Source: Phascolarctobacterium sp. ET69
Lineage (GTDB): Bacteria; Bacillota; Negativicutes; Acidaminococcales; Acidaminococcaceae
Direction: 5' to 3'
Assembly: GCF_023336935.1 (NCBI RefSeq)
Contig: NZ_JAMBLR010000007.1
Coordinates: forward strand, 1-64,000
Length of the DNA: 64,000 bases
Made by a program: the position numbers and the translations under genes. Numbering within the stretch: the first letter of the stretch is position 1; each line of letters begins with the position of its first letter. This document shows positions 3,954 to 36,052 of this stretch, piece by piece. Under the pieces are notes generated by a model, which saw nothing but the letters and a program-made list of their open reading frames with translations, had not been told where the DNA came from and did not search any database.

Positions 3954-4799
3954 ATGAATATTATTCAAAACCGCACAATGGATGAAGAACGTGCGTTATA
4001 TGGCTTACATAATGCAGACGTAGTGAACTGCGAATTTTCCGGACCGCTTGATGGGGAATCTGCATTGAAAGAATGCGGTAATATTAACATAAAAAACTGC
4101 CGGTTTTTGCTGCGCTATCCTTTATGGCACTTAAACGGCGGCAGTATGGAAAATTCGTTAATGACGGAAACCTGCCGTGCTGCAATGTGGTATGACAAAA
4201 ATTTTGTTATTGAAAGCACGGAAATAAACGGCATTAAAGCCGTACGCGAATGTGATGATGTAACGATAAAAGACTGTAAAATAAATTCTGAAGAGTTCGG
4301 CTGGTTCTGCCGCAGAATGAAGATTGAAAACTGCGGACTTGTTTCCGTTTATCCGTTTTTGCAATGCCGCAATCTGGAAATTATCGGACTGAAGATGCAG
4401 GGCAAATATTCTTTTCAGTATGCAGAAAACGTAACTATAAAAAATTCCGTACTCGATACTAAAGACGCCTTCTGGCACAGCAAAAACGTAACCGTTACCG
4501 ACAGCATTATTAAAGGCGAATACCTTGCCTGGTATTCAGAGAATCTGCATCTTATACGCTGCAAAATAATTGGCACACAGCCTTTATGCTATGCCAAAGG
4601 GCTGGTTATGGAAGATTGTGAAATGCAGGATTGTGATTTGGCTTTTGAATACAGTGACGTAAAAGCCAGCATTAAAGGAACGGTGGAAAGCGTAAAAAAT
4701 CCGCTCAGCGGGTATATACATGCCGGACGGATTGGCAAAATTATTATTGACGAGCATTGTGCTAAAAATGCCGGATGTGAGATAAAAACATTAAAATAA
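3954..4799 (+). CDS. DUF3737-like right-handed beta-helix protein
   Basis: A 281-aa protein made of short repeating units such as NVTIKNSVLDTKDAFWHSKNV and NLEIIGLKMQG. This is the periodicity of a parallel beta-helix and matches my recollection of DUF3737. There is no signal peptide. It ends the operon with the FMN reductase and the cyclophilin-like lipoprotein, a neighbourhood common in anaerobic Firmicutes. Function is unknown; the fold suggests a binding or scaffold protein more than an enzyme. A strong bidirectional hairpin follows. Confidence 0.75.
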   Translation: MNIIQNRTMDEERALYGLHNADVVNCEFSGPLDGESALKECGNINIKNCRFLLRYPLWHLNGGSMENSLMTETCRAAMWYDKNFVIESTEINGIKAVRECDDVTIKDCKINSEEFGWFCRRMKIENCGLVSVYPFLQCRNLEIIGLKMQGKYSFQYAENVTIKNSVLDTKDAFWHSKNVTVTDSIIKGEYLAWYSENLHLIRCKIIGTQPLCYAKGLVMEDCEMQDCDLAFEYSDVKASIKGTVESVKNPLSGYIHAGRIGKIIIDEHCAKNAGCEIKTLK

Positions 4800-24981: not shown

Positions 24982-25870
24982 AGTGCAGCCGCATGCCAAA
25001 TACCGTCCCGGTGATGTAGTAACTTTAAAAGCGGTGCGTGCTTCTGAAATGGGTGTATTTTTGGACGCAGGCACCGGCAATACCGACGACGATATTTTAC
25101 TGCATAAATTGCAGCAGGAAACCGAGGTAAAGGTTGGCGATTCCGTTAAGGTTTACCTGTATCTCGACCCGCACGGACGCCTTACCGCCAGCATGAAACT
25201 GCCCAAAATGCGTGAAGGGCAGCTTGGCTATGTTAAAGTTTTAAGCGTTACGCGCGACGGTGGTTTTGTCGATATCGGAGCAGAGCGCGGCGTATTTTTG
25301 CCGTACAGCCAGATGCGCGGGCATGTGTCGCCGGGGCAGCTTGTATGGGTTAAGCTGTACCGCGATAAAACAGGCCGTCAGGCTGTAAGCATGCGCGTGG
25401 ACAAGGAAATGCAGAAGGCATCCAAACCGGCCTCCGGCATTAAAGTCGGCGATACCGTAACAGGCACGATTTATAATATTTTGCCGGAAGGATTTTTTAT
25501 ATTTACCAACCAGCGCTTTTTAGGCTTCCTGCACCGCAGCGAAGTGCCCGGCGGCAGGCTTGATTTCGGGCAGGAAATTACCGCCCGTGTGGCTTATGTC
25601 CGTGCCGACGGCAGGCTGAACCTTTCCATGCGCCAGCAGAAGGAACATGCCATGGTTGCCGATGCGGAAGATATTTTAAGCTTTTTAAAGAAACGCGGCG
25701 GCAAAATGCCTTACTGCGACGATACGCCAATGGAAATTATTAAAGAAAAGTTCGGCATCAGCAAGGCTGCGTTTAAACGTGCCCTGGGGCGTCTTTTGCG
25801 TCAGGGGCTGATCCGTCAGGAAGAAGGCTGGACGATTTTGCTGGAAAATCCTGAGGAAAATAAAAAATGA
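24974..25870 (+). CDS. CvfB-like S1 RNA-binding protein
   Basis: A 298-aa protein of the CvfB (conserved virulence factor B/YitL) family. Several S1-type OB folds are visible (GYVKVLSVTRDGGFVDIGAERGVFLP; GTIYNILPEGFFIFTNQRFLGFLHRSE), followed by a C-terminal winged-helix segment (MPYCDDTPMEIIKEKFGISKAAFKRALGRLLRQGLI). It probably binds RNA and affects gene expression. ATG 24974 (GGAGGAAG before it) is preferred to an upstream in-frame start. It overlaps rsfS by 8 nt and the next TSUP gene by 4 nt. Confidence 0.88.
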   Translation: MNKVQPHAKYRPGDVVTLKAVRASEMGVFLDAGTGNTDDDILLHKLQQETEVKVGDSVKVYLYLDPHGRLTASMKLPKMREGQLGYVKVLSVTRDGGFVDIGAERGVFLPYSQMRGHVSPGQLVWVKLYRDKTGRQAVSMRVDKEMQKASKPASGIKVGDTVTGTIYNILPEGFFIFTNQRFLGFLHRSEVPGGRLDFGQEITARVAYVRADGRLNLSMRQQKEHAMVADAEDILSFLKKRGGKMPYCDDTPMEIIKEKFGISKAAFKRALGRLLRQGLIRQEEGWTILLENPEENKK

Positions 25871-26613
25871 CAGACATACTGCTTATTGTTTTTGTTTCAA
25901 TAAGTGTATTTATGGCGTCTTTATTCAGCACTGTTACCGGGTTCGGTTTTGCTCTGGTGGCAGTGCCATTTTTAATGCCTGTTTTGGGTGCGCATGAAAC
26001 GGTTGTATTTATAATTTTTGGCACCTGCCTTGTAAAAATGATTGTGCTGTGGAATACGCGCAAACATTTTGAATGGCATACTGTGGCAGTAACCGTTGCA
26101 GGCAGTGTGCTCGGCAGCCTGCCGGGAAGTTATTTGTTAAATGCCATATCACCGGCATATTTGCAGATTTTGCTGGGAACCGTGCTTGTAATTGTACTTT
26201 TTATGATGGGCATGCACTTTGATTTAAGCGTTAAAAATAAAACTGTTGGGCGTATAACGGCAGGCTTTTTAAGCGGTTTTTCCGCTGCAACAACAAGCAT
26301 CAGCGGCCCGCCGGTTGCCTTGTATTTTTTAACCGAAGGGCGTGATAAGCTTGTAACGCGTGCCAACATGTGCTGGATTTTTGCCTTCGGCAATATTGGT
26401 ACCATGTTTTCACTGGCTCTTTCGGGCAGCAGCATCAGCGGCGATTTAATGCTGCTGGCGGCTTATTTTACTTTGCCTATGCTTTTGGGCACATGGATTG
26501 GTGAACGCTGTTTTTATAAAATCAATCAGCATTTGTTTATAAGGCTTACGCAGATTTTTATTGTTATCGGCGCCTGCACGGCGTTATACCGCGGCATAAC
26601 GGCTTTATTGTAA
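25867..26613 (+). CDS. TSUP-family (TauE/SafE) membrane transporter, copy 1
   Basis: A 248-aa integral membrane protein with about eight helices arranged as two repeats. TVTGFGFALVAVPFLMPVLG and SGFSAATTSISGPPVALYFL are the two half-site motifs of the TauE/SafE sulfite-exporter family, which moves sulfonates, sulfite or other organic anions. Its start overlaps the cvfB stop (ATGA). A close paralogue of the same length follows at 26653. Confidence 0.88.
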   Translation: MTDILLIVFVSISVFMASLFSTVTGFGFALVAVPFLMPVLGAHETVVFIIFGTCLVKMIVLWNTRKHFEWHTVAVTVAGSVLGSLPGSYLLNAISPAYLQILLGTVLVIVLFMMGMHFDLSVKNKTVGRITAGFLSGFSAATTSISGPPVALYFLTEGRDKLVTRANMCWIFAFGNIGTMFSLALSGSSISGDLMLLAAYFTLPMLLGTWIGERCFYKINQHLFIRLTQIFIVIGACTALYRGITALL

Positions 26614-26652: not shown

Positions 26653-27399
26653 ATTACGGATATATTGTTTGTTTTATATATTTCTGTAAGTGTTTTTATA
26701 GCTTCTTTGTTTTTTGCCGTTACAGGCTTTACGCTTTCTTTGGTGGCAGTGCCGTTTTTAATGCCGGTTTTAGGGCCTAAAGAAACCGTGGTGTTTATTA
26801 TTTTTGGTACGTTTCTTGCCAAAGTTGTGGCGCTGTGGAATACGCGCCGCGATTTTGAGTGGCATACGGTTTTGGTAACCGTTTTCGGCAGTATTATGGG
26901 CAGCATTCCCGGCGGTTACGTTTTAAATGCCATACCGGCGGCGTATTTACAAATTTTACTGGGCATAATGCTGCTTGCCGTAATGCTTTTAATGGGCAGA
27001 AAATTTAAAATTAACATACAGAATAAAACTGCCGGGCGCATTGCCGCAGGGTTTATAAGCGGTTTTTCGGCGGCAATGACGAGTATCAGCGGCCCGCCGG
27101 TGGCGCTGTACTTTTTGGCAGAAGGGCGTGATAAAACGGTAACGCGCGCCAATATGTGCTGGATTTTTGCCTTTGGCAGTCTTGGTACAATGGCATCGCT
27201 GTTGGCAGCAGGAAGTTTCATCAGTGCGGATTTAATGCTGCTTGCAGTTTATGCTGCACTGCCGCTGCTTTTAGGCATGTGGCTGGGTGAGCGCTGCTTT
27301 CATAAAATTAACCAGCGTTTATTTATACGGCTCAGCAAAGGCTTTGTCGTTATCGGTGCCTGCACGGCATTATACCGCGGCATAACGGCGCTTATGTAA
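26653..27399 (+). CDS. TSUP-family transporter, copy 2, probable ATT start
   Basis: A 248-aa paralogue of the preceding transporter, with motifs AVTGFTLSLVAVPFLMPVLG and SGFSAAMTSISGPPVALYFL. AGGAGG (26641-26646) is 6 nt from ATT 26653. The codons ATT ACG GAT ATA TTG align with ATG ACA GAC ATA CTG of copy 1, so an ATT start gives the same N-terminus and exactly the same length. The next possible start, TTG 26665, is 18 nt from the SD and would remove four residues. ATT initiation is rare and would mean low or regulated translation. Confidence 0.8.
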   Translation: MTDILFVLYISVSVFIASLFFAVTGFTLSLVAVPFLMPVLGPKETVVFIIFGTFLAKVVALWNTRRDFEWHTVLVTVFGSIMGSIPGGYVLNAIPAAYLQILLGIMLLAVMLLMGRKFKINIQNKTAGRIAAGFISGFSAAMTSISGPPVALYFLAEGRDKTVTRANMCWIFAFGSLGTMASLLAAGSFISADLMLLAVYAALPLLLGMWLGERCFHKINQRLFIRLSKGFVVIGACTALYRGITALM

Positions 27400-27466
27400 A
27401 TTGCTGTAACATTGTTTACAAAATAATTTGCGCAAAAAATATTTTTGCCAAAATTTGTATTTTTGC

Positions 27467-27495
27467 TTGACGGCTTTATTCCGGCAGGTTAAAAT
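27467..27495 (+). promoter_or_regulatory. Promoter of the aromatic amino acid operon
   Basis: TTGACG at 27467-27472, a 17-nt spacer and TAAAAT at 27490-27495. Transcription would start near 27502, giving a leader of about 275 nt that contains a leader peptide and a terminator. Confidence 0.75.
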
Positions 27496-27529
27496 TACAA
27501 CATCAAATAACTTTAAGGTGTGTGTATTT

Positions 27530-27682
27530 ATGGAACAGATTTGGCAGCAAAATGCTAAAAGTGCATACTTTTTCGGCTTTAGCCAGGGCTATTTTTACTT
27601 TAGCGCTGGCCGTTTTGCATGCTCAAAATCTCATAGAAGTTATACCGTAAACAGATGCCTTGACTTCAGCAGTTGGCTGTAA
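27530..27682 (+). CDS. Phe/Tyr-rich leader peptide of the aro operon
   Basis: A 50-aa peptide gene beginning MEQIWQQNAKSA. Residues 13-29 contain Tyr13, Phe14, Phe15, Phe17, Tyr21, Phe22, Tyr23, Phe24 and Phe29. In all, 13 of 50 residues are aromatic (7 Phe, 4 Tyr, 2 Trp). TAAGGTG lies upstream of ATG 27530. It ends 18 nt before a terminator hairpin and sits in the leader of the DAHP-synthase operon. This is the arrangement of classical amino-acid attenuation: ribosome stalling at Phe/Tyr codons would stop terminator formation. An in-frame upstream start near 27428 lies before the promoter and is not credible. Confidence 0.78.
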   Translation: MEQIWQQNAKSAYFFGFSQGYFYFSAGRFACSKSHRSYTVNRCLDFSSWL

Positions 27683-27700
27683 ATTAAACAAGTTTTTGTA

Positions 27701-27732
27701 ATCAGGCTCTCTTACGAGGCCTGATTTTTTTT
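27701..27732 (+). terminator. Attenuator terminator of the aro operon
   Basis: ATCAGGC-t-CTC (27701-27711) pairs with GAGGCCTGAT (27716-27725): a 10-bp stem with one bulged T and a TTAC loop, followed by eight T residues. It lies between the leader peptide and aroF. GCCTtGA (27657-27663), at the end of the leader peptide gene, can pair with TCAGGC in the 5' arm and may be part of an antiterminator. Confidence 0.85.
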
Positions 27733-27777
27733 ATAGGTTTAATCAAAAATTCAAATATTATTAAAGGGGAGAGAAAT

Positions 27778-28791
27778 ATGGTAATTGTAATGAAACCCGG
27801 CACGCCGGAACAAGAATGGAAAAAAATTAAGGAAAACCTTGAAGGCAGAGGCTATCAGATTAATGAAATCGTCGGCAGCGGCCAGACTATTTTAGGCGTT
27901 ATCGGCGATACCAGCGCGCTGGATATGAACATGTTGAAGGTTAACGAATGCGTCGATAAGGTAATGCGCGTTCAGGAACCTTTTAAACGTGCCAACCGCA
28001 GCTTCCACCCGGAAGACAGCGTTATTGACGTTAGCGGCGTAAAAATAGGCGGGCGCAAGCTGGCGGTTATTGCCGGCCCGTGTTCAGTTGAAAATGAAAA
28101 GCAGATTGTCGGCGTTGCCAAATCCGTAAAACTTGCCGGTGCAACATTGCTGCGCGGCGGTGCTTTCAAACCGCGTACATCGCCATACTCTTTCCAGGGA
28201 TTAAAAGAAGAAGGGCTTGACCTTTTAAAAATAGCACGTAAAGAAACCGGGCTGCCGATTGTAACGGAAATTATGTCCGCCAGAATGCTGGAACGCTTTG
28301 TTGAAGACGTTGATTTGATTCAGGTTGGCGCACGCAATATGCAGAACTTTGAGCTTTTAAAAGAACTTGGCAGAACCAACGTGCCGGTGCTGTTAAAACG
28401 CGGCCTTTCCGCAACTATTGAAGAATGGCTGATGGCGGCAGAATACATTATGGCAGGCGGCAACGACAACGTAATTTTGTGCGAGCGCGGCATCCGCACA
28501 TTTGAAACCTACACCCGCAATACGCTTGATTTGAGCGCAATTCCGGCAGTTAAAAAATTAAGCCATCTGCCGGTTATTGTAGACCCGAGCCATGCAGCAG
28601 GTTTGTGGTGGATGGTTGAGCCAATGGCAAAAGCTGCTGTTGCAGCAGGCGCAGACGGTTTAATAATTGAAGTACACAATGACCCGGAACACGCTTTGTG
28701 CGATGGTGCGCAGTCGCTTAAACCGGAACGTTTCGCACGTTTGATGGGCGAACTGAGCGGCATTGCCAAGATTGTGGGCAGAGAACTGTAA
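27778..28791 (+). CDS. aroF: 3-deoxy-7-phosphoheptulonate (DAHP) synthase
   Basis: A 337-aa enzyme that condenses phosphoenolpyruvate with erythrose 4-phosphate, the first step of the shikimate pathway. Residues 1-70 form a ferredoxin-like regulatory domain, as in type I-beta enzymes. The catalytic barrel has IAGPCSVENEKQI, LRGGAFKPRTSPYSFQG, QVGARNMQNFELL, LLKRG and IVDPSHAAG. It is the first gene of a nine-gene operon and has SD GGGGAGAG. Expression is probably set by the leader attenuator. Confidence 0.95.
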   Translation: MVIVMKPGTPEQEWKKIKENLEGRGYQINEIVGSGQTILGVIGDTSALDMNMLKVNECVDKVMRVQEPFKRANRSFHPEDSVIDVSGVKIGGRKLAVIAGPCSVENEKQIVGVAKSVKLAGATLLRGGAFKPRTSPYSFQGLKEEGLDLLKIARKETGLPIVTEIMSARMLERFVEDVDLIQVGARNMQNFELLKELGRTNVPVLLKRGLSATIEEWLMAAEYIMAGGNDNVILCERGIRTFETYTRNTLDLSAIPAVKKLSHLPVIVDPSHAAGLWWMVEPMAKAAVAAGADGLIIEVHNDPEHALCDGAQSLKPERFARLMGELSGIAKIVGREL

Positions 28792-28845
28792 AATGCAGTA
28801 TAATTGGTAGTATGGAAGGATAGAAGGATAGAAGGAGTGACTTTA

Positions 28846-29718
28846 GTGGACGCAGGCTTTTGCAGCAGATTGCAGGAACAATGCTTTGCCATTATCGGCA
28901 TGGGACTGATAGGAGGTTCTTATGCCAAAGCGTTAAGGCGGCTGGGTGTAAAAAACATTACCGGCGTTGATGTTAATAAAAATGTTTTGCAGCAGGCACT
29001 GGCAGACGGAGTTATAGACCGCGCTTATGAAAATGCCGGGGCTTATCTGGCTGAGGCAGATGTAATAATCTGCTGCATCTACCCCAAGGCGGTTACGGAA
29101 TTTTTGCGGCAGGCAGCGCCGTTTATAAAAAAGGGCGCAGTAATAACGGATGTATCGGGCAGAAAGGGCAGCCTGCCTTATGAGGCGCAGCAGCTTGTGC
29201 CGGAGGGTGCGGAATTTATTTCCGGCCATCCGATGGCGGGGCGCCAGGGCAATGGTTATGATATGTCGCAGGCGGAAATTTTTAACGGGGCCAATTACAT
29301 TGTTGTTCCTACCCCTGCAAACAGTAAAGCGGCAGTTAACTGGCTGAAAAATTTTGCGCTTTGCCTTGGCTGCGGCCATGTGGAAGAAATAACGCCTGAA
29401 AGCCACGATAAAATTATTGCCTATACCAGCAATCTGCCGCATGCAGCTGCGGCGGCGCTTATTAACAGCGACAGGTTCAGCGGGCAGAGCTGCTGGTTTA
29501 TTGGCGGCGGTTTCCGTGATGTAACGCGCATTGCCGATATTAACGCAAACTTGTGGAGCGATTTGTTTTTGGAAAACCGCGAAAATGTTTTAAGCGAACT
29601 GGAAAATTTTAGAACGCAAATTGAAACGCTGCAGAAGCTGATTAACGAAAATAACCGTGAAGGTTTGCAGGAGTTTTTGCAAAAGGCAGCCTGCCACAGG
29701 AAGGAAATTGTTTTATGA
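28846..29718 (+). CDS. tyrA: Prephenate dehydrogenase
   Basis: A 290-aa NAD(P)-dependent enzyme that oxidatively decarboxylates prephenate to 4-hydroxyphenylpyruvate for tyrosine. The Rossmann motif IIGMGLIGGSYAKAL, the SGHPMAGRQGNGYD segment and TSNLPHAAAAAL are characteristic. It lacks a C-terminal ACT domain. GTG 28846 is chosen because GAAGGAG ends 8 nt before it; upstream in-frame codons overlap short GGATAGAA repeats. It overlaps aroB by 4 nt. Confidence 0.92.
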   Translation: MDAGFCSRLQEQCFAIIGMGLIGGSYAKALRRLGVKNITGVDVNKNVLQQALADGVIDRAYENAGAYLAEADVIICCIYPKAVTEFLRQAAPFIKKGAVITDVSGRKGSLPYEAQQLVPEGAEFISGHPMAGRQGNGYDMSQAEIFNGANYIVVPTPANSKAAVNWLKNFALCLGCGHVEEITPESHDKIIAYTSNLPHAAAAALINSDRFSGQSCWFIGGGFRDVTRIADINANLWSDLFLENRENVLSELENFRTQIETLQKLINENNREGLQEFLQKAACHRKEIVL

Positions 29719-30782
29719 GCATTATCAGGGTGAATTTGGGTGCAAAATCCTATAATATAGAAATTGCCGCAGGGCTTTTGGACACTGCCGGAGAAAAAAT
29801 CCGCAGCATCAGCAAGGCGCAGCGCGCTGCCGTTATCAGCGACAGCAATGTTGATGCGCTTTATGGAAAACGCTTGCAGGCGGCGCTTGCAGGCAGCGGC
29901 TTTAAAGTAACGCGCATTGTTTTTCCTGCCGGGGAAAAAAGCAAATGCTTGGCTGAACTTGCCAAAATTTATGACAGGCTTGCGGAAGCAGGCATTACCC
30001 GCAGCGACCTTGTAGTTGCGCTTGGCGGCGGTGTTACGGGTGACCTTGGCGGCTTTGCTGCGGCAACATTTCTGCGCGGCGTTGATTATGTGCAGATTCC
30101 TACATCGCTGCTGGCACAGATTGACAGCAGTGTGGGCGGCAAAGTAGCGGTTGATTTGCCTGCCGGCAAGAACCTTGTAGGTAATTTTTATCAGCCTAAG
30201 CTGGTGCTTATTGATACTATGCTTTTAAAAACTTTGCCGGTGCGCTTTTTGCACGACGGGCTTGCGGAAGCAATTAAGTATGGCTGCATACGCGACAGGG
30301 CTTTGTTTGAAAAAATTGCCGCTATGCGTGACGATGATGAACTTTTGGAAAACATCGGCGGCATTGTGGAACGCTGCTGCGCAATAAAAGCAGAAATTGT
30401 TGAGCATGACGAGTTTGATACCGGTGAGCGTATGGTACTTAATTTTGGGCATACCATAGGGCATGCGGTGGAAAAATGCAGTAATTACGAAAGCTTTACC
30501 CATGGCGAAGCCGTTGGCATAGGCATGCTGCTGTTAACAAGGCAGACGGAACTGTTTGGCTTGACGGAAAGAGAAACTGCGGCGGCAATTTATGATGTGC
30601 TGAAAAAATATAATTTGCCTGTTGATGCTGATTACGGTAATGAAGAACTTTTGAAGGCTGCGGGTATGGATAAAAAGAAAAGCGGCAGCAGCATTACACT
30701 GGTTATTTTAAAAAATATCGGCACGAGTTTTTTGCAGAAAACAAACTGGCAGGATTTGCCTGAATATATTAAACGGGGTTAA
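29715..30782 (+). CDS. aroB: 3-dehydroquinate synthase
   Basis: A 355-aa NAD+- and metal-dependent enzyme that cyclises DAHP to 3-dehydroquinate. NAD site: ALGGGVTGDLGGFAAATFLRG. Substrate and metal region: QIPTSLLAQIDSSVGGKVAVDLPAGKNLVG, with NFGHTIGHAVE and THGEAVGIGM supplying metal ligands. Full length. The start overlaps the tyrA stop (ATGA), so the two are coupled. Confidence 0.95.
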   Translation: MSIIRVNLGAKSYNIEIAAGLLDTAGEKIRSISKAQRAAVISDSNVDALYGKRLQAALAGSGFKVTRIVFPAGEKSKCLAELAKIYDRLAEAGITRSDLVVALGGGVTGDLGGFAAATFLRGVDYVQIPTSLLAQIDSSVGGKVAVDLPAGKNLVGNFYQPKLVLIDTMLLKTLPVRFLHDGLAEAIKYGCIRDRALFEKIAAMRDDDELLENIGGIVERCCAIKAEIVEHDEFDTGERMVLNFGHTIGHAVEKCSNYESFTHGEAVGIGMLLLTRQTELFGLTERETAAAIYDVLKKYNLPVDADYGNEELLKAAGMDKKKSGSSITLVILKNIGTSFLQKTNWQDLPEYIKRG

Positions 30783-30784
30783 AG

Positions 30785-32080
30785 ATGGCTAAGGTTAAAA
30801 TATATCCGGGGGCGTTAAGCGGAATTGTAAATGTGCCTTCTTCCAAAAGCATGGGGCACCGCGAAATTATCTGTGCCGCGCTGGCACAGGGCATAAGCGT
30901 TATAGACAATATAAGCATGTCGGATGATATAAAGGCAACACTGCGCTGTTTAAAAGCGCTTGGTGTACAGTCGGAACTTACAGCAAGCCGGTTTAAAGGG
31001 CGCAGTGCCGTTAAAATTTACGGTGAAGGCACGGTAAGAGCTACTGGTGATGAATGTGACTGCGGTGAATCGGGGTCTACCCTGCGCTTTTTGCTGCCGC
31101 TTGGCGCGTTGTGCGGGGCGCCTGTTACTTTTACAGGCGCGGGGCGCTTGGGAGAACGCCCTCTGAAACCGTATTACGATATTTTTGATATACAGGGCGT
31201 TAAATACGCACCGGCACAGGGGCTGCCAGTAACAGTTGAGGGCAGGCTGCACAGCGGCAAATTTACTTTGCCCGGCAATGTAAGTTCGCAGTTTATCAGC
31301 GGTTTGCTGTTTGCGCTGCCGCTGCTTGAAGGCGATTCGGAAATTATTATTACCACGCCGCTGGAATCCCAGAGTTATGTTGATTTAACGCTTTCCGCAT
31401 TAAAAAAATACGGCATAAAGGTTGTAAACAATAATTATAAAACATTTACCGTGCCCGGCGGGCAAAAATATCAATGCCGCAGCGCCGTTGTAGAAGGCGA
31501 CTGGTCGCAGGCTGCGTTCTGGCTTGCTGCCGGGTGCCTTAACGGAAATATTATCTGCGCTGGTGCGGAAGCAGCTTCTTTGCAGGGCGACAGGGCAGTA
31601 AAAGATATTTTGCAGGCGATGGGCGGCAAAATATCCGCAGCTGACGGCGGGCTTTTGGCAGAAACAAGCCGCCTGCACGGCACTGTTATTGATGCCGCTG
31701 ACTGCCCGGACATAATTCCGGTGCTGACCGTGGCTGCTGCTGTGGCGAAAGAAACTACGGAAATTATTAACGCCGGGCGTTTGCGCATTAAAGAATGTGA
31801 CCGCCTGCACGCCATTAGTGAAGAACTTAATAAGTTAGGCGCAGATATTGAAGAAAAAGCCGAAAGCCTTATCGTTCACGGCAAGCCGGAAGGGTTGCGC
31901 GGCGGCGTTGTTTCTGCATGGAATGACCACCGCATAGCCATGAGCATGGCAGTGGCAAGCCTTGTCTGCCGTGAGCCGGTAATTATTGAAGGCAGCGAAA
32001 GCGTAAAAAAATCATATCCCACCTTTTGGCAGGATTTTTCCTGCTTGGGCGGCAAATATGAGCAGGGAGAAAATTTATGA
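30785..32080 (+). CDS. aroA: 3-phosphoshikimate 1-carboxyvinyltransferase (EPSP synthase)
   Basis: A 431-aa enzyme that joins shikimate 3-phosphate and phosphoenolpyruvate. N-terminal VPSSKSMGHREIICAAL, CGESGSTLRFLLPLGAL and GRLGERPLKPYYD are its substrate-binding segments. C-terminal DWSQAAFWLAAG, PDIIPVLTVAAA, LRIKECDRLHAI and WNDHRIAMSMAVA complete the active site. It overlaps aroC by 4 nt. Confidence 0.95.
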   Translation: MAKVKIYPGALSGIVNVPSSKSMGHREIICAALAQGISVIDNISMSDDIKATLRCLKALGVQSELTASRFKGRSAVKIYGEGTVRATGDECDCGESGSTLRFLLPLGALCGAPVTFTGAGRLGERPLKPYYDIFDIQGVKYAPAQGLPVTVEGRLHSGKFTLPGNVSSQFISGLLFALPLLEGDSEIIITTPLESQSYVDLTLSALKKYGIKVVNNNYKTFTVPGGQKYQCRSAVVEGDWSQAAFWLAAGCLNGNIICAGAEAASLQGDRAVKDILQAMGGKISAADGGLLAETSRLHGTVIDAADCPDIIPVLTVAAAVAKETTEIINAGRLRIKECDRLHAISEELNKLGADIEEKAESLIVHGKPEGLRGGVVSAWNDHRIAMSMAVASLVCREPVIIEGSESVKKSYPTFWQDFSCLGGKYEQGENL

Positions 32081-33162
32081 CGGCAACTTTGGGTGAAAAA
32101 ATAAAACTTACTATTTTCGGTGAATCGCACGGGCTTGGCATAGGCTGTGTAATAGACGGTTTGCCGCCGGGATTTGCAATAGACCTTGACGCTGTAAAAA
32201 AAGAAATGCAGCGCCGTGCACCGGGAAAAAGCCCGCTTGCAACAGCGCGGAATGAGAAAGACGCTTTTATAATTGAAAGCGGTTTTTTTGAAGGCAGAAC
32301 AACAGGCACGCCGTTATGCGTTTTAATACCCAACAGCGACCAGCACAGCGGCGATTACAGTAAACTTAAAAATGTGATGCGGCCGGGGCATGCCGATTAC
32401 AGCGGCAAAGTAAAATATAACGGCTTTAATGATTACCGCGGCGGGGGGCATTTTTCCGGAAGATTGACCGCTCCTTTGGTTTTTATGGGTGCCGTAGCCA
32501 AGCAAATTCTGGCGAAGCGTGGCATTTACGTTGGCGCGCATATAGTAGCAGTTGCAGGCGTAAAAGATACGCCGTTTAATCCGCTTGGCGAAAGAGCGGA
32601 TACTTTTTCGGAATTGGCGCAGAAAACTTTTCCGGTGCTGGATGACGCTGCCGGAAACGAAATGCAGCAGCTGATTTTAGCTGCCAAACAAAGCTGTGAT
32701 TCGGTTGGCGGCGTAATTGAGTGCATGGCAATAAACTTGCCTGCCGGTATCGGTGCGCCGTTTTTCGATTCGCTGGAAAGCCGCTTGGCACATGCCTTGT
32801 TCAGTGTGCCTGCTGTTAAAGGCATAGAATTTGGCAAAGGTTTTGCGCTGGCACAGATGCCGGGCAGCGAAGCCAATGACCAGATGTATTATGATAACGG
32901 CATGGTAAAAACCTACACCAATAATAACGGCGGCATTACCGGCGGTATTACCAACGGCATGCCGGTGCTGTTTAAGGCGGCCGTAAAGCCTACGCCGAGC
33001 ATTGCCAAAGTGCAGAAAACGGTTGATTTAAGTACGGAAAGCAATACGGAACTGGTAATTACAGGAAGGCACGACCCCTGTATTGTGCAGCGCGCCGTGC
33101 CTGTAATTGAAGGTGTTGCCGCCTGGGTGATTTTGGATATGCTGCTGGCAGGAGAGAAATAA
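32077..33162 (+). CDS. aroC: Chorismate synthase
   Basis: A 361-aa FMN-dependent enzyme that makes chorismate from EPSP. Signatures: GESHGLGIGCVIDGLPPG, RRAPGKSPLATARNEKD, RPGHADYSGKVKY, RGGGHFSGRLTAPLVFMGA and the late FKAAVKPTPSIAK plus GRHDPCIVQRAVPV. Full length. It is coupled to aroA through an ATGA overlap and followed after 1 nt by pheA. Confidence 0.95.
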   Translation: MTATLGEKIKLTIFGESHGLGIGCVIDGLPPGFAIDLDAVKKEMQRRAPGKSPLATARNEKDAFIIESGFFEGRTTGTPLCVLIPNSDQHSGDYSKLKNVMRPGHADYSGKVKYNGFNDYRGGGHFSGRLTAPLVFMGAVAKQILAKRGIYVGAHIVAVAGVKDTPFNPLGERADTFSELAQKTFPVLDDAAGNEMQQLILAAKQSCDSVGGVIECMAINLPAGIGAPFFDSLESRLAHALFSVPAVKGIEFGKGFALAQMPGSEANDQMYYDNGMVKTYTNNNGGITGGITNGMPVLFKAAVKPTPSIAKVQKTVDLSTESNTELVITGRHDPCIVQRAVPVIEGVAAWVILDMLLAGEK

Positions 33163-33163
33163 A

Positions 33164-34294
33164 ATGACAGAAAAACTTGATTTGGAAGCCATCCGCCGGG
33201 AAATAGACGAAGCCGACAGTAATTTAATAAACGCTTTTGAACGGCGTTTGCAGGCAGTGCTGCGGGTTGCCGAATACAAAAAGCAAAATAACCTGCCTGT
33301 GCGCGACAGGGCAAGAGAGCTGAAGGTAATAGAAAAAGCACAGGGCAAGCTCCGCAACAAAAATTACGCTCCGGCAGTAGCCGGATTGATGGAAGAAATT
33401 ATGGCCATTGCCCGCAAAATGGAAGAACAGCAGATAAGTGCTGAACCGGTAGAAACAGTACCGCTTGAAGTAGGCTGTTTTGGCGTGGAGGGTTCTTACA
33501 GCCATAAAGCTATGGAAGAATATTTTGCGGGAAAGAATATTAACAGGCATTACTATTCCGTGTTTGAAGACGTGGTAAAAGCCGTAAAAAACGGTGAAAT
33601 CCGTTATGGCGTTCTGCCGGTTGAAAATTCTTCTACCGGCGGCATTACGGAAGTTTATGACCTTGTGCGCCGCTATAACTGCCATATTACCGGTGAAAAA
33701 TGCGTAAAGATAGAGCATAATTTAATGGCTCTGCCGGGGGCTGTTCTCAGCGGAATTACCGAGGTATATTCGCACCCGCAGGGGTTTGCCCAGTGCAAGG
33801 ATTTTTTTACGGAATATCCGCAGATGAAATTAATTCCGTATTACAGCACGTCTAAAAGTGCAGAAGCCGTTAAAGAAAGCGGCAGCCTTCATAAAGCAGC
33901 CGTTGCAGGCAAACAGGCTGCCGAGTTGTACGGCTTGCAGATTTTAGCTGCCAATATTAACTATAACGGCAATAACACCACACGTTTTATTATTATTGCC
34001 AATGAAGCGGAACACAGTGCCGATGCCGATAAAATTACACTTGTAATAGCAGTTAAGCATGAGCCCGGTTCGCTGTACCGTGTATTGGGGTATTTTTACC
34101 ACAGCGGCTTAAACCTTACCAATTTGGAATCGCGCCCGATTGAGGGTAAGTCGTGGGAATATTTTTTCCATATTGATTTGGTGGGCAACCTTGCCGATAC
34201 CAATGTGCAGGAAACAGTGCGTATGCTGAAAGATAACTGCGCGTATTTTAAAATTTTAGGCAACTACCGCAGCGATATGGGACGGGAGAGATAG
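33164..34294 (+). CDS. pheA: Bifunctional chorismate mutase / prephenate dehydratase
   Basis: A 376-aa enzyme of phenylalanine synthesis. Residues 1-90 are an AroQ-class chorismate mutase (LEAIRREIDEADSNLINAFERRLQ; VAEYKKQNNLPV). Residues 100-280 are a prephenate dehydratase domain (GVEGSYSHKAMEEYF; GVLPVENSSTGGITEVYDL; YSHPQGFAQC; NNTTRFIII). Residues 290-370 are an ACT domain (HEPGSLYRVLGYFYHSGLNLTNLESRP), the usual site of Phe feedback. ESRP is intact, so allosteric inhibition is expected. Confidence 0.95.
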   Translation: MTEKLDLEAIRREIDEADSNLINAFERRLQAVLRVAEYKKQNNLPVRDRARELKVIEKAQGKLRNKNYAPAVAGLMEEIMAIARKMEEQQISAEPVETVPLEVGCFGVEGSYSHKAMEEYFAGKNINRHYYSVFEDVVKAVKNGEIRYGVLPVENSSTGGITEVYDLVRRYNCHITGEKCVKIEHNLMALPGAVLSGITEVYSHPQGFAQCKDFFTEYPQMKLIPYYSTSKSAEAVKESGSLHKAAVAGKQAAELYGLQILAANINYNGNNTTRFIIIANEAEHSADADKITLVIAVKHEPGSLYRVLGYFYHSGLNLTNLESRPIEGKSWEYFFHIDLVGNLADTNVQETVRMLKDNCAYFKILGNYRSDMGRER

Positions 34295-34296
34295 TG

Positions 34297-35115
34297 ATGC
34301 AGCATTTTGGCTTATTGGGAGCAAAACTTGGGCACAGCCTGTCGCCGCAAATACACGGAATGATTTTTGAAGAACTGGATATTGCTGCGGATTATAAGCT
34401 GCTGGAACTTCCGGCAGAAGCATTAAAAACAGCTGTGCCGGAACTAGCGCAAAGATATACAGGCGTTAATGTAACTATTCCGCATAAAATAGAAGTCATG
34501 CCGTTTCTGGATAGTATATCTGCTGAAGCAGCAGCTATTGGCGCCGTAAATACCATTAGCTTTAATAACGGCAAAAGCTGCGGATATAATACCGACTGGC
34601 TCGGTTTTGGCATGATGCTGGAATATTACGGCATTAAAACAGAAGGCAAAAAAGCAGCCGTACTCGGCATTGGCGGCGCTTCGCGCGCAGTGGTGCAGTA
34701 CCTTGCAAAAAGCAGGGCAAAGGAAATTTTGCTGGTGTCAAGAAATCCGCAGGCAATTCCGCAGCAGGTTGTAGAAATCTGCGGTAATATCAAAACACGC
34801 TGTTTGAGTTATGAGGAACTTGCCGGAGAAACGGGCGATATTATTATTAACTGTACGCCGGTAGGGATGTACCCCAAAACAGGGGTAAGCCCCGTAACGG
34901 AAGCCGTTATTAAAAATTTCGGCGCGGCGGCAGATTTAATTTATAATCCTGCCGAAACCGAATTTTTGCGTATGGCACGTGCCTGCGGAAAAACAGCCGT
35001 AAACGGGCTTTTAATGCTGGCGGCGCAGGCCGTGGCAGCGCAGGAAATTTGGCAGCAGCGCAAACTGGGTACTGATTTGGCAGTGAAAATTATGCAGAGG
35101 CTGGCAGAAAAATAA
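34297..35115 (+). CDS. aroE: Shikimate dehydrogenase
   Basis: A 272-aa NADP-dependent enzyme that reduces 3-dehydroshikimate. LGAKLGHSLSPQIHGMIF binds shikimate, GVNVTIPHKIEV holds the catalytic Lys, and YNTDWLGF and VLGIGGASRAVVQYL form the cofactor domain. ATG 34297 is preferred to GTG 34294 because GGGAGAG lies 6 nt before it. It abuts pheA and overlaps aroK by 1 nt. Confidence 0.94.
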   Translation: MQHFGLLGAKLGHSLSPQIHGMIFEELDIAADYKLLELPAEALKTAVPELAQRYTGVNVTIPHKIEVMPFLDSISAEAAAIGAVNTISFNNGKSCGYNTDWLGFGMMLEYYGIKTEGKKAAVLGIGGASRAVVQYLAKSRAKEILLVSRNPQAIPQQVVEICGNIKTRCLSYEELAGETGDIIINCTPVGMYPKTGVSPVTEAVIKNFGAAADLIYNPAETEFLRMARACGKTAVNGLLMLAAQAVAAQEIWQQRKLGTDLAVKIMQRLAEK

Positions 35116-35615
35116 TGAAAAATATAGTTTTAATTGGTATGCCCGGCTGCGGAAAAACAACGCTGGGCAAACTTTTGGCAGCAAAGCTTAAAATGGAATT
35201 TTATGACGCCGACGACGTTTTGGAGCAGCGGGAGCCTTACAGCATTAAAGAGTTTTTTGCCCAGGGTGAAGAAGTTTTCCGCGAAGCTGAGCAGAGGACT
35301 GCTGAATTTTTGGCGTGTAAAGAAAACTGCGTTATTGCGGCAGGCGGCGGAGTTGTAAAAAAAGAGGCAAGTATGGCTGCTTATGGCAAAAACGGCATTA
35401 TAGTTTTTATAGACCGCCCGGCGGACGCTATTGTAAATGATGTTGAAATTAAAACGCGGCCGCTTTTGGCTGCCGGAACGCAGCGGGTTTATGAGCTTTA
35501 TGATGAAAGAATAGAACTTTACAGAAAATATGCCGCTTACATTGTAAAAAATGCAGACAGCATAGAAAATGTGTTGAGCCAGCTTGTAAAAATTGCCGGG
35601 GAGATGAAAAAATGA
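35115..35615 (+). CDS. aroK: Shikimate kinase
   Basis: A 166-aa P-loop kinase that phosphorylates shikimate. Walker A is GMPGCGKTTLG (8-18), DADD holds the Mg/shikimate Asp, the GEEVFREAE Arg is the shikimate contact, and AAGGGVV is the second substrate loop. Its start overlaps the aroE stop (TAATG), and it overlaps aroQ by 4 nt. Confidence 0.94.
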   Translation: MKNIVLIGMPGCGKTTLGKLLAAKLKMEFYDADDVLEQREPYSIKEFFAQGEEVFREAEQRTAEFLACKENCVIAAGGGVVKKEASMAAYGKNGIIVFIDRPADAIVNDVEIKTRPLLAAGTQRVYELYDERIELYRKYAAYIVKNADSIENVLSQLVKIAGEMKK

Positions 35616-36052
35616 AAAATATTTTGGTAATTAACGGGCCTAACATAAATTTGCTGGGTATCCGCGAAAAAAACGTATATGGCGCCAAAGATTACGCCGA
35701 TTTGTGTGCTTTTATTTTGCAGCAGGCAGAAGAAATTGGGGTTAATGTTAAAATCTGCCAGAGCAATTACGAAGGTGAGCTGGTAGGTTTTATTCAGGAC
35801 GCATACGGAAAATATGACGGCATTGTTATTAATCCTGCCGCATATACCCATTACAGCGTGGCAATTTTGGATGCCTTAAAAGGCGTGGCGCTGCCCGCTA
35901 TTGAGGTGCATTTAAGCAATGTGCATGCGCGTGAGGAGTTCCGCCATAAATCTGTAACAGCTCCAGCCTGCCTGGGGCAGATTTGCGGGCTTGGCTTTAT
36001 GGGTTATGCCCTTGCCATGCGTGCACTGGCTGCTTTGTTGGAAAATAAATGA
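35612..36052 (+). CDS. aroQ: 3-dehydroquinate dehydratase, type II
   Basis: A 146-aa dodecameric type II dehydroquinase. NGPNINLLGIRE, CQSNYEGELVGFIQDA, NPAAYTHYSVAILDAL and EVHLSNVHAREEFRHKSV carry the catalytic Tyr, Asn, His and Arg. It closes the pathway set in this operon: all seven steps from DAHP to chorismate plus both prephenate branches are encoded here. Confidence 0.95.
   Translation: MKNILVINGPNINLLGIREKNVYGAKDYADLCAFILQQAEEIGVNVKICQSNYEGELVGFIQDAYGKYDGIVINPAAYTHYSVAILDALKGVALPAIEVHLSNVHAREEFRHKSVTAPACLGQICGLGFMGYALAMRALAALLENK

Follow-up and report, generated by a model that had tools for sequence, protein, structure and literature searches.

The question raised by this locus is how transcription of the aro operon of the gut bacterium Phascolarctobacterium sp. 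ET69 is controlled, and what part is played by the short Phe/Tyr-rich ORF and the terminator preceding its first gene, aroF. The DNA analysed (the window; 64,000 nt, positions 1–64,000 of contig NZ_JAMBLR010000007.1) had received a first-pass annotation proposing ribosome-mediated attenuation. Our preferred reading, with a probability of approximately 0.87, is that ribosome-mediated transcription attenuation of the trp/phe type operates in this region and would control the whole common aromatic pathway together with the Phe and Tyr branches in response to the availability of charged tRNA-Phe and tRNA-Tyr.

Organization of the leader region and the aro operon

The features of the region are listed in Table 1. 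Nine genes of the same direction (aroF-tyrA-aroB-aroA-aroC-pheA-aroE-aroK-aroQ) are located 3′ of the terminator; model matches bear out the complete operon of the first-pass annotation, the assignments of tyrA, aroE and aroK being based on models that score below their curated cut-offs. AroF of an uncultured Phascolarctobacterium (L031) is 99% identical to the window protein. Two adjacent and similar membrane-protein genes (25867–26613 and 26665–27399), both matching Pfam TauE (sulfite exporter TauE/SafE family), lie directly 5′ of the leader.

Table 1. Features of the leader region and of the downstream operon (positions in the window)
Feature	Position	Strand	Basis
Sigma-70-like promoter, TTGACG-17 bp-TAAAAT	27467..27495	+	consensus matches 10/12
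Region 1, Shine-Dalgarno/start region, predicted partner of region 2 in ribosome-free RNA	27513..27533	+	MFE; species swap
Leader peptide ORF, 50 codons, product MEQIWQQNAKSAYFFGFSQGYFYFSAGRFACSKSHRSYTVNRCLDFSSWL	27530..27682	+	translation; in-frame length variation, 33/33 family leaders
Control codons, Phe/Tyr cluster, residues 13–29	27566..27616	+	translation, composition
P1 hairpin, loop with Phe/Tyr codons	27582..27610 (27582–27591 with 27601–27610, one G.G mismatch)	+	fold, recoding test
Region 2, antiterminator 5′ half (CGUAAACAGAUGCC...)	27646..27663	+	pairing tests
Region 3, terminator 5′ arm plus loop, antiterminator 3′ half	27702..27716	+	pairing tests
Intrinsic terminator	27700..27732 (stem 27700–27726, U-run 27725–27732)	+	fold; stem covariation, 33 sequences
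aroF, DAHP synthase	27778..28791	+	NF006421 and TIGR01361, above curated cut-offs
tyrA, prephenate dehydrogenase	28804..29718	+	prephenate dehydrogenase models, all below curated cut-offs
aroB	29715..30782	+	TIGR01357
aroA	30785..32080	+	TIGR01356
aroC	32077..33162	+	TIGR00033
pheA, chorismate mutase/prephenate dehydratase	33164..34294	+	NF008865 above cut-off; chorismate mutase domain below cut-off
aroE	34294..35115	+	TIGR00507, just under cut-off
aroK	35115..35615	+	shikimate kinase models, below cut-offs
aroQ, type II dehydroquinate dehydratase	35612..36052	+	TIGR01088

The promoter recognized by the first-pass annotation was confirmed as a promoter-like site, and the same -35 and -10 motifs were seen 5′ of the leader in all five congeners. 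A promoter scan of positions 27000–28200, which gave 5 sites compared to 2.4 (sd 2.0) in shuffled sequences, by itself proves little. The annotated 50-codon leader and its Phe/Tyr cluster were likewise upheld: when the 468 window ORFs of 30–90 codons were ranked by local Phe+Tyr density, this ORF, entered with a TTG start further upstream, came first, with 8 such residues in a stretch of 14. In 63 leaders (2782 residues) Phe accounts for 13.7% and Tyr for 10.8% of the residues, compared to 3.3% and 3.2% in the nine proteins of the operon.

A terminator with a U-run is indeed present before aroF, but it is not the plain 10-bp stem described at first: the sequence AATCAGGC-T-CTC-TTAC-GAG-GCCTGATT, followed by the U-run, forms 11 pairs with one bulge. 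A simple terminator scan of the window did not list it, probably because of this bulge. The window leader RNA as a whole is structured (MFE z -3.84 compared to shuffled sequences).

Conservation and distribution of the leader

A Phe/Tyr-rich ORF and a terminator are present 5′ of aroF in all five congeners. Comparison of the window ORF with those of four congeners (L005 was left out) revealed 9 synonymous and 23 non-synonymous codon differences, with none of the latter in residues 12–31. The absence of homologous leaders from related genomes had been named beforehand as the result that would speak against attenuation; leaders were found 5′ of aroF in 33 of the 37 genomes of the Acidaminococcaceae. 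Thirty were detected by the profile and three (G010, G023 and G033) by eye, the latter being short and missed by profile A2. The four leaderless assemblies (G015, G019, G029 and G034) contain no complete copy of this aroF. Alignment A1 comprises 33 of the 34 rows prepared (L112 was dropped by hand). The distance from the ATG to P1 varies between 70 and 85 nt and is identical modulo 3 in all 33 family leaders, while the motif varies by clade (APVFSFYFSTG or SQGYFYFSAG). Tandem aroF pairs occur in G006, G009, G011, G013, G018, G020–G022, G024, G030, G031 and G035, and the profile matches a leader only before the first gene of each pair.

The distribution of the leader was examined with profile A2, built from 36 leader peptides, at a threshold of E≤0.001 for the class searches. 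Among the Negativicutes 100 of 380 genomes gave matches, and among the Clostridia 41 of 291; these counts partly include the seed genomes of the profile. Two control groups were searched. The Spirochaetota gave matches in 3 of 198 genomes. None was found in the 198 genomes of the class of an Acholeplasmatales genome, a search that included no known positive and is hence weak as a negative. No aromatic gene was present in the 3-kb loci of the five marginal control-group matches. The diderm-Firmicute setting named in the first-pass annotation is too narrow, since the leader is not peculiar to one diderm genus and spans Negativicutes and Clostridia.

The downstream gene was examined for 85 of the 110 listed Negativicutes places and 42 of the 44 listed Clostridia places, and in 123 of these 127 the leader precedes an aromatic-pathway gene, mostly aroF. 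The four exceptions are decayed aroF pieces (G039), a gene for an ACT-domain protein preceded by the second leader of L149 (the ACT query came from this matched locus, so that the row is not independent, and it was counted as non-aromatic), a symporter gene (L230) and a locus, L157, in which no gene was recognised 3′ of the leader. Among 61 relatives, 39 matches were found at E≤5e-5: 37 just 5′ of aroF, one (G052:C6) before aroA and one before the decayed aroF pieces of G039. The downstream DNA of 89 places, including G052:C6 (47 Negativicutes and 42 Clostridia), was searched by tblastn; aroF was the next gene in 72 and another aromatic gene in 13. One locus scored as tyrA in this search (L196) reads as aroF, and the leader of L151 precedes pheA (Pfam PDT). 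The distance between leader and aroF is 88–428 nt (median 136, 72 places).

Where the pathway is split, leaders were found before aroK in Pelosinus (L147, G088), before aroA-aroC-aroK in G052 and G292, and before aroB, tyrA or pheA in other genomes. In Clostridium magnum one leader precedes aroK and a DAHP synthase gene, and another precedes a second copy of the latter; this gene is of a second kind, not found by tblastn with the window AroF.

Several loci deserve separate mention. In L230 (G549:C18:8400-10200) a leader-like match precedes a gene for a sodium:solute symporter (Pfam SSF), and either the transporter is under the same control or the match is due to chance. L142 (G039:C1:1818000-1825500) contains three leaders, two with identical peptides, among intact and decayed aroF copies, which suggests that leader and gene were recently duplicated together. 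Shorter or unrelated-looking Phe/Tyr-rich ORFs are located 5′ of aroF in Clostridia (L055, L080, L090, L093, L099, L101 and L104), and profile A2 finds no match to those of L080 and L090. Attenuation by a leader may have evolved repeatedly at aroF.

Alternative pairings and simulated states of the leader RNA

The partial antiterminator of the first-pass annotation (27657–27663) proved to be part of a longer pairing of 27646–27663 with 27702–27716 (2:3), in which, in the window, CGUAAACAGAUGCC (27646–27659) faces GGCUCUCUUACG (27705–27716). Two elements had not been noted before: the protector, in which region 2 pairs with region 1 (1:2), and P1, the hairpin carrying the control codons (27582–27610).

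Covariation was found in the terminator stem, where 40 cells of the 33-sequence alignment are changed on both sides, a value reached by none of 500 shuffles. The antiterminator is 84% paired across the family, with changes that are mostly one-sided, e.g. G-U exchanges; its letters differ in Clostridium and G039 (AAUGAGU with ACUCAUU or GCUCAUU) and also in Lachnospiraceae. A terminator was found by script in 58 of 63 leaders; the remaining five (L037, L039, L042, L123 and L126) are absent from all 2:3 counts, and in L037, L039 and L042 a hairpin and a T-run are visible by eye.

The most powerful test of the pairings was to swap regions between species in 39 representative leaders chosen by hand. 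Both 1:2 (z -10.7) and 2:3 (z -7.2) were species-matched at p 5e-5, the floor of the test, while the control pairings were flat (1:3, p 0.99; mid-ORF with region 2, p 0.07; region 1 with the terminator 3′ arm, p 0.17). Within the Acidaminococcaceae alone 1:2 again reached p 5e-5; 2:3 was not species-matched there (p 0.27, n = 19), plausibly because its sequence is nearly fixed in this family. An earlier 3:2 swap test was discarded as biased, region 2 having been selected for its fit to region 3, and the unselected test was used instead.

In the window alone the antiterminator is not significant (p 0.07 with dinucleotide shuffles, 0.099 with synonymous recoding), so that the case rests on comparison. 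In single-sequence tests 2:3 gave p<0.05 in 21 of 58 leaders, and in 15 of 58 under synonymous recoding. P1 is on average more stable than its synonymous recodings (mean z -1.17; p<0.05 in 15 of 63 leaders). Its covariation in one fixed register is mixed (75.7% paired, with a higher covariation score for a slide of +1), apparently because one clade shifts the helix, and was not used as proof.

These comparisons support two mutually exclusive pairings, predicted to join the start region with the leader 3′ end and the leader 3′ end with the terminator arm. Several components of an attenuator were found: a cluster of end-product codons, a terminator before the first gene, 2:3 exclusive with 3:4 (over all 39 representatives) and the protector 1:2 (weak in the window strain). 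Computation established the conserved ORF and its frame, the covarying terminator, the species-matched 1:2 and 2:3 pairings and the placement before aromatic genes; of these, frame, pairings and terminator fit the ribosome-mediated attenuation put forward in the first-pass annotation, a mechanism that the leader would carry out as follows.

We infer translation of the ORF, ribosome stalling, termination, the Phe/Tyr specificity and the role of P1. In ribosome-free RNA, region 2 would tend to pair with region 1, and the terminator can fold. An initiating ribosome would open 1:2. Stalling on the Phe/Tyr codons 13–29 would leave region 2 free to pair with the 5′ arm and loop of the terminator immediately upon their synthesis, and the resulting antiterminator would block the terminator and allow the operon to be transcribed. 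With ample Phe and Tyr, the ribosome would run on to the stop codon and cover region 2 or have passed it, and the terminator would end transcription. P1 probably times the ribosome and the polymerase.

Simulation of 44 leaders with the 3′ arm of the terminator unmade gave a mean P(2:3) of 0.79 for a Phe/Tyr stall, 0.35 for free RNA and 0.04 for a ribosome at the stop codon. The leaders were picked by hand, and their region 2 had been delimited by how well it matches region 3, a choice that works in favour of the stalled-state value. The best stall gave P(2:3) >0.5 in 41 of the 44; the other three (L120, L125 and L083) showed no antiterminator. With the complete terminator at equilibrium, the window sequence gave a terminator probability of 0.91–0.96 and an antiterminator probability of 0 at all nine ribosome positions tried. 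Since the terminator always wins at equilibrium in this strain, the decision must fall during transcription, i.e. be kinetic, as it is in classical trp attenuation.

The window copy has several peculiarities. Its free RNA shows a P(2:3) of 0.63, i.e. a weak protector. When three stalls were tried before the 3′ arm was made, the antiterminator was the MFE structure for codon 29 only; at stalls on codon 22 or 24 a hairpin (27636–27642 with 27660–27667) competes with region 2, a hairpin that sequence changed relative to the congeners (within 27636–27682) can form. The ORF, at 50 codons, exceeds those of the congeners (43–44) by six to seven and ends 18 nt past region 2, compared to 1–3 nt, so that region 2 may be only partly covered once the ribosome has reached the stop codon. 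Given the competing hairpin, the weak protector and the longer ORF, this copy may be less tightly regulated than those of its relatives.

Rival readings and relation to known regulators

Could the same data be explained without a ribosome that reads Phe and Tyr codons? The ORF might be incidental to an RNA-only element, i.e. a riboswitch or protein-binding attenuator sensing an aromatic compound directly. The leader RNA is certainly structured, as its MFE z indicates, and a candidate aromatic riboswitch has been reported 5′ of the aroFBC-tyrA operon of Enterococcus faecium (PMC4448216). However, an incidental ORF would leave unexplained why its frame is kept in 33 of 33 leaders despite changes in length, why the Phe/Tyr codons of the cluster are kept while other codons vary freely within the genus, and why Phe and Tyr make up 24.5% of the residues; moreover, no Rfam family, T-box included, matches at gathering score, and we regard this explanation as very unlikely. 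The opposite extreme, in which the ORF encodes a functional small protein or arose by chance before a constitutive terminator and the pairings are side effects of composition, draws on the weakness of the single-sequence pairing tests. The species-swap tests with their three negative controls, the consistent placement 5′ of aroF and the leaders that also front split aromatic operons speak against it, and we give it a very small probability.

The peptide itself might act, as in the arrest peptide TnaC, with the nascent chain stalling the ribosome upon sensing free Phe, Tyr or a related molecule rather than by codon-by-codon starvation. Residues other than Phe and Tyr do recur far apart (S-W-G-Y and S-A-G-Y-F) in both Negativicutes and Clostridia; they coincide, however, with the arms of P1, which is on average stronger than its synonymous recodings, so that their conservation can be explained at the RNA level, and the difference in motif between clades, described above, also speaks against a sensing peptide, which we consider scarcely probable. 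A broader proposal builds on the same residues: an old modular device of the aromatic regulon of Negativicutes and Clostridia, copied to each operon as the pathway was split, in which the conserved peptide (S-W-G-Y ... S-A-G-Y-F) would co-stall the ribosome, so that both tRNA charging and free aromatic amino acids would be read. This we hold to be improbable.

The mechanism of the preferred reading, ribosome-mediated attenuation, is classical (trp/phe). The trp and pheA attenuators of E. coli consist of a short ORF with codons for the end product, exclusive 1:2, 2:3 and 3:4 pairings and a terminator before the first structural gene, a plan that the aro leader shares; unlike them, it has mixed Phe and Tyr codons, places these in a hairpin of their own between regions 1 and 2, and fronts the whole common pathway, in Firmicutes. 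Rfam contains a Phe leader family, but at gathering score the enterobacterial Phe leader, like every other Rfam family, gave no match in the window. Permissive Rfam searching of 27380–27800 produced eight weak matches, the best of which (BTnc005, minus strand, E 3e-4, 26.8 bits compared to a gathering score of 174.8) was dismissed as chance. In 20 related loci the only match at gathering score was one T-box (L048, 1286–1521), away from aroF at 4001. Pfam and NCBIfam gave no family for the four leader peptides searched.

T-boxes sense tRNA charging and terminate transcription before amino-acid genes, as is predicted for the aro leader; unlike it, they have no ORF and bind the tRNA directly. The T-box (RF00230) has no match in the window at gathering score, and at least 11 matches elsewhere in the same genome; T-boxes are abundant in the genomes compared. 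TRAP-binding leaders are marked by spaced GAG/UAG triplets and an mtrB gene. Aromatic regulation in low-GC Gram-positive bacteria is the subject of a 2003 paper by Panina.

The nearest published counterpart found, compared by its description only, is uORFC-13-1 5′ of Acholeplasma aroF, an upstream ORF that has one or more Phe codons and is accompanied by a terminator; attenuation has been proposed for it (PMC8632094). Both combine a Phe-codon ORF with a terminator before aroF; the present family spans Negativicutes and Clostridia, whereas the 24 representatives of uORFC-13-1 are described only from Acholeplasma and environmental sequences (PMC8632094). In 120 genomes of the order to which an Acholeplasmatales genome belongs, profile A2 matched weakly twice (E 0.0018 and 0.0067), and the 3-kb loci of these two matches contain no aromatic gene. 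According to a report of 2010 (PMC2965389), regular leader peptides had until then been described in Proteobacteria and Actinobacteria only, Firmicutes having T-boxes. His leader peptides are described from Firmicutes, before his and hisS genes (PMC2965389, PMC9413887); they resemble the aro leader in using leader-peptide attenuation in place of T-boxes, and differ from it in their His codons and in the genes they front.

The literature searched, which left out many subscription papers, so that a prior description is possible, held no description of this leader family in Negativicutes or Clostridia. Judged from comparative sequence data, the leaders appear to form a new family within a known type of regulator, varied by its putative mixed Phe/Tyr sensing and its nested control-codon hairpin.

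Within the Negativicutes, aroF is preceded by a T-box in some genomes and by the Phe/Tyr leader in others. Outside the family, at least 12 of 32 aroF-like hits compared have a T-box 50–99 nt upstream, a figure that is indicative only, the hits having been picked by hand and the T-box positions taken from the matches listed. Such a T-box, <100 nt 5′ of the gene, was seen before aroF in G041, G044, G046, G047, G049, G051, G053, G055, G056, G058 and G059, and before the aroF-like hit G054:C5. G054 carries one aroF with a leader (C39) and this aroF-like hit (residues 72–337) with a T-box (C5). Since aroF is fronted by either sensor, and one genome has a copy with each, the interchange of two sensors of the same signal becomes directly open to study. 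With approximately 140 genomes behind it, the leader provides a conserved, searchable attenuator from which a small aromatic regulon can be predicted from sequence alone. Its recurrence in two bacterial classes suggests that a switch of this kind, which would activate aromatic genes when Phe or Tyr is short, is widespread.
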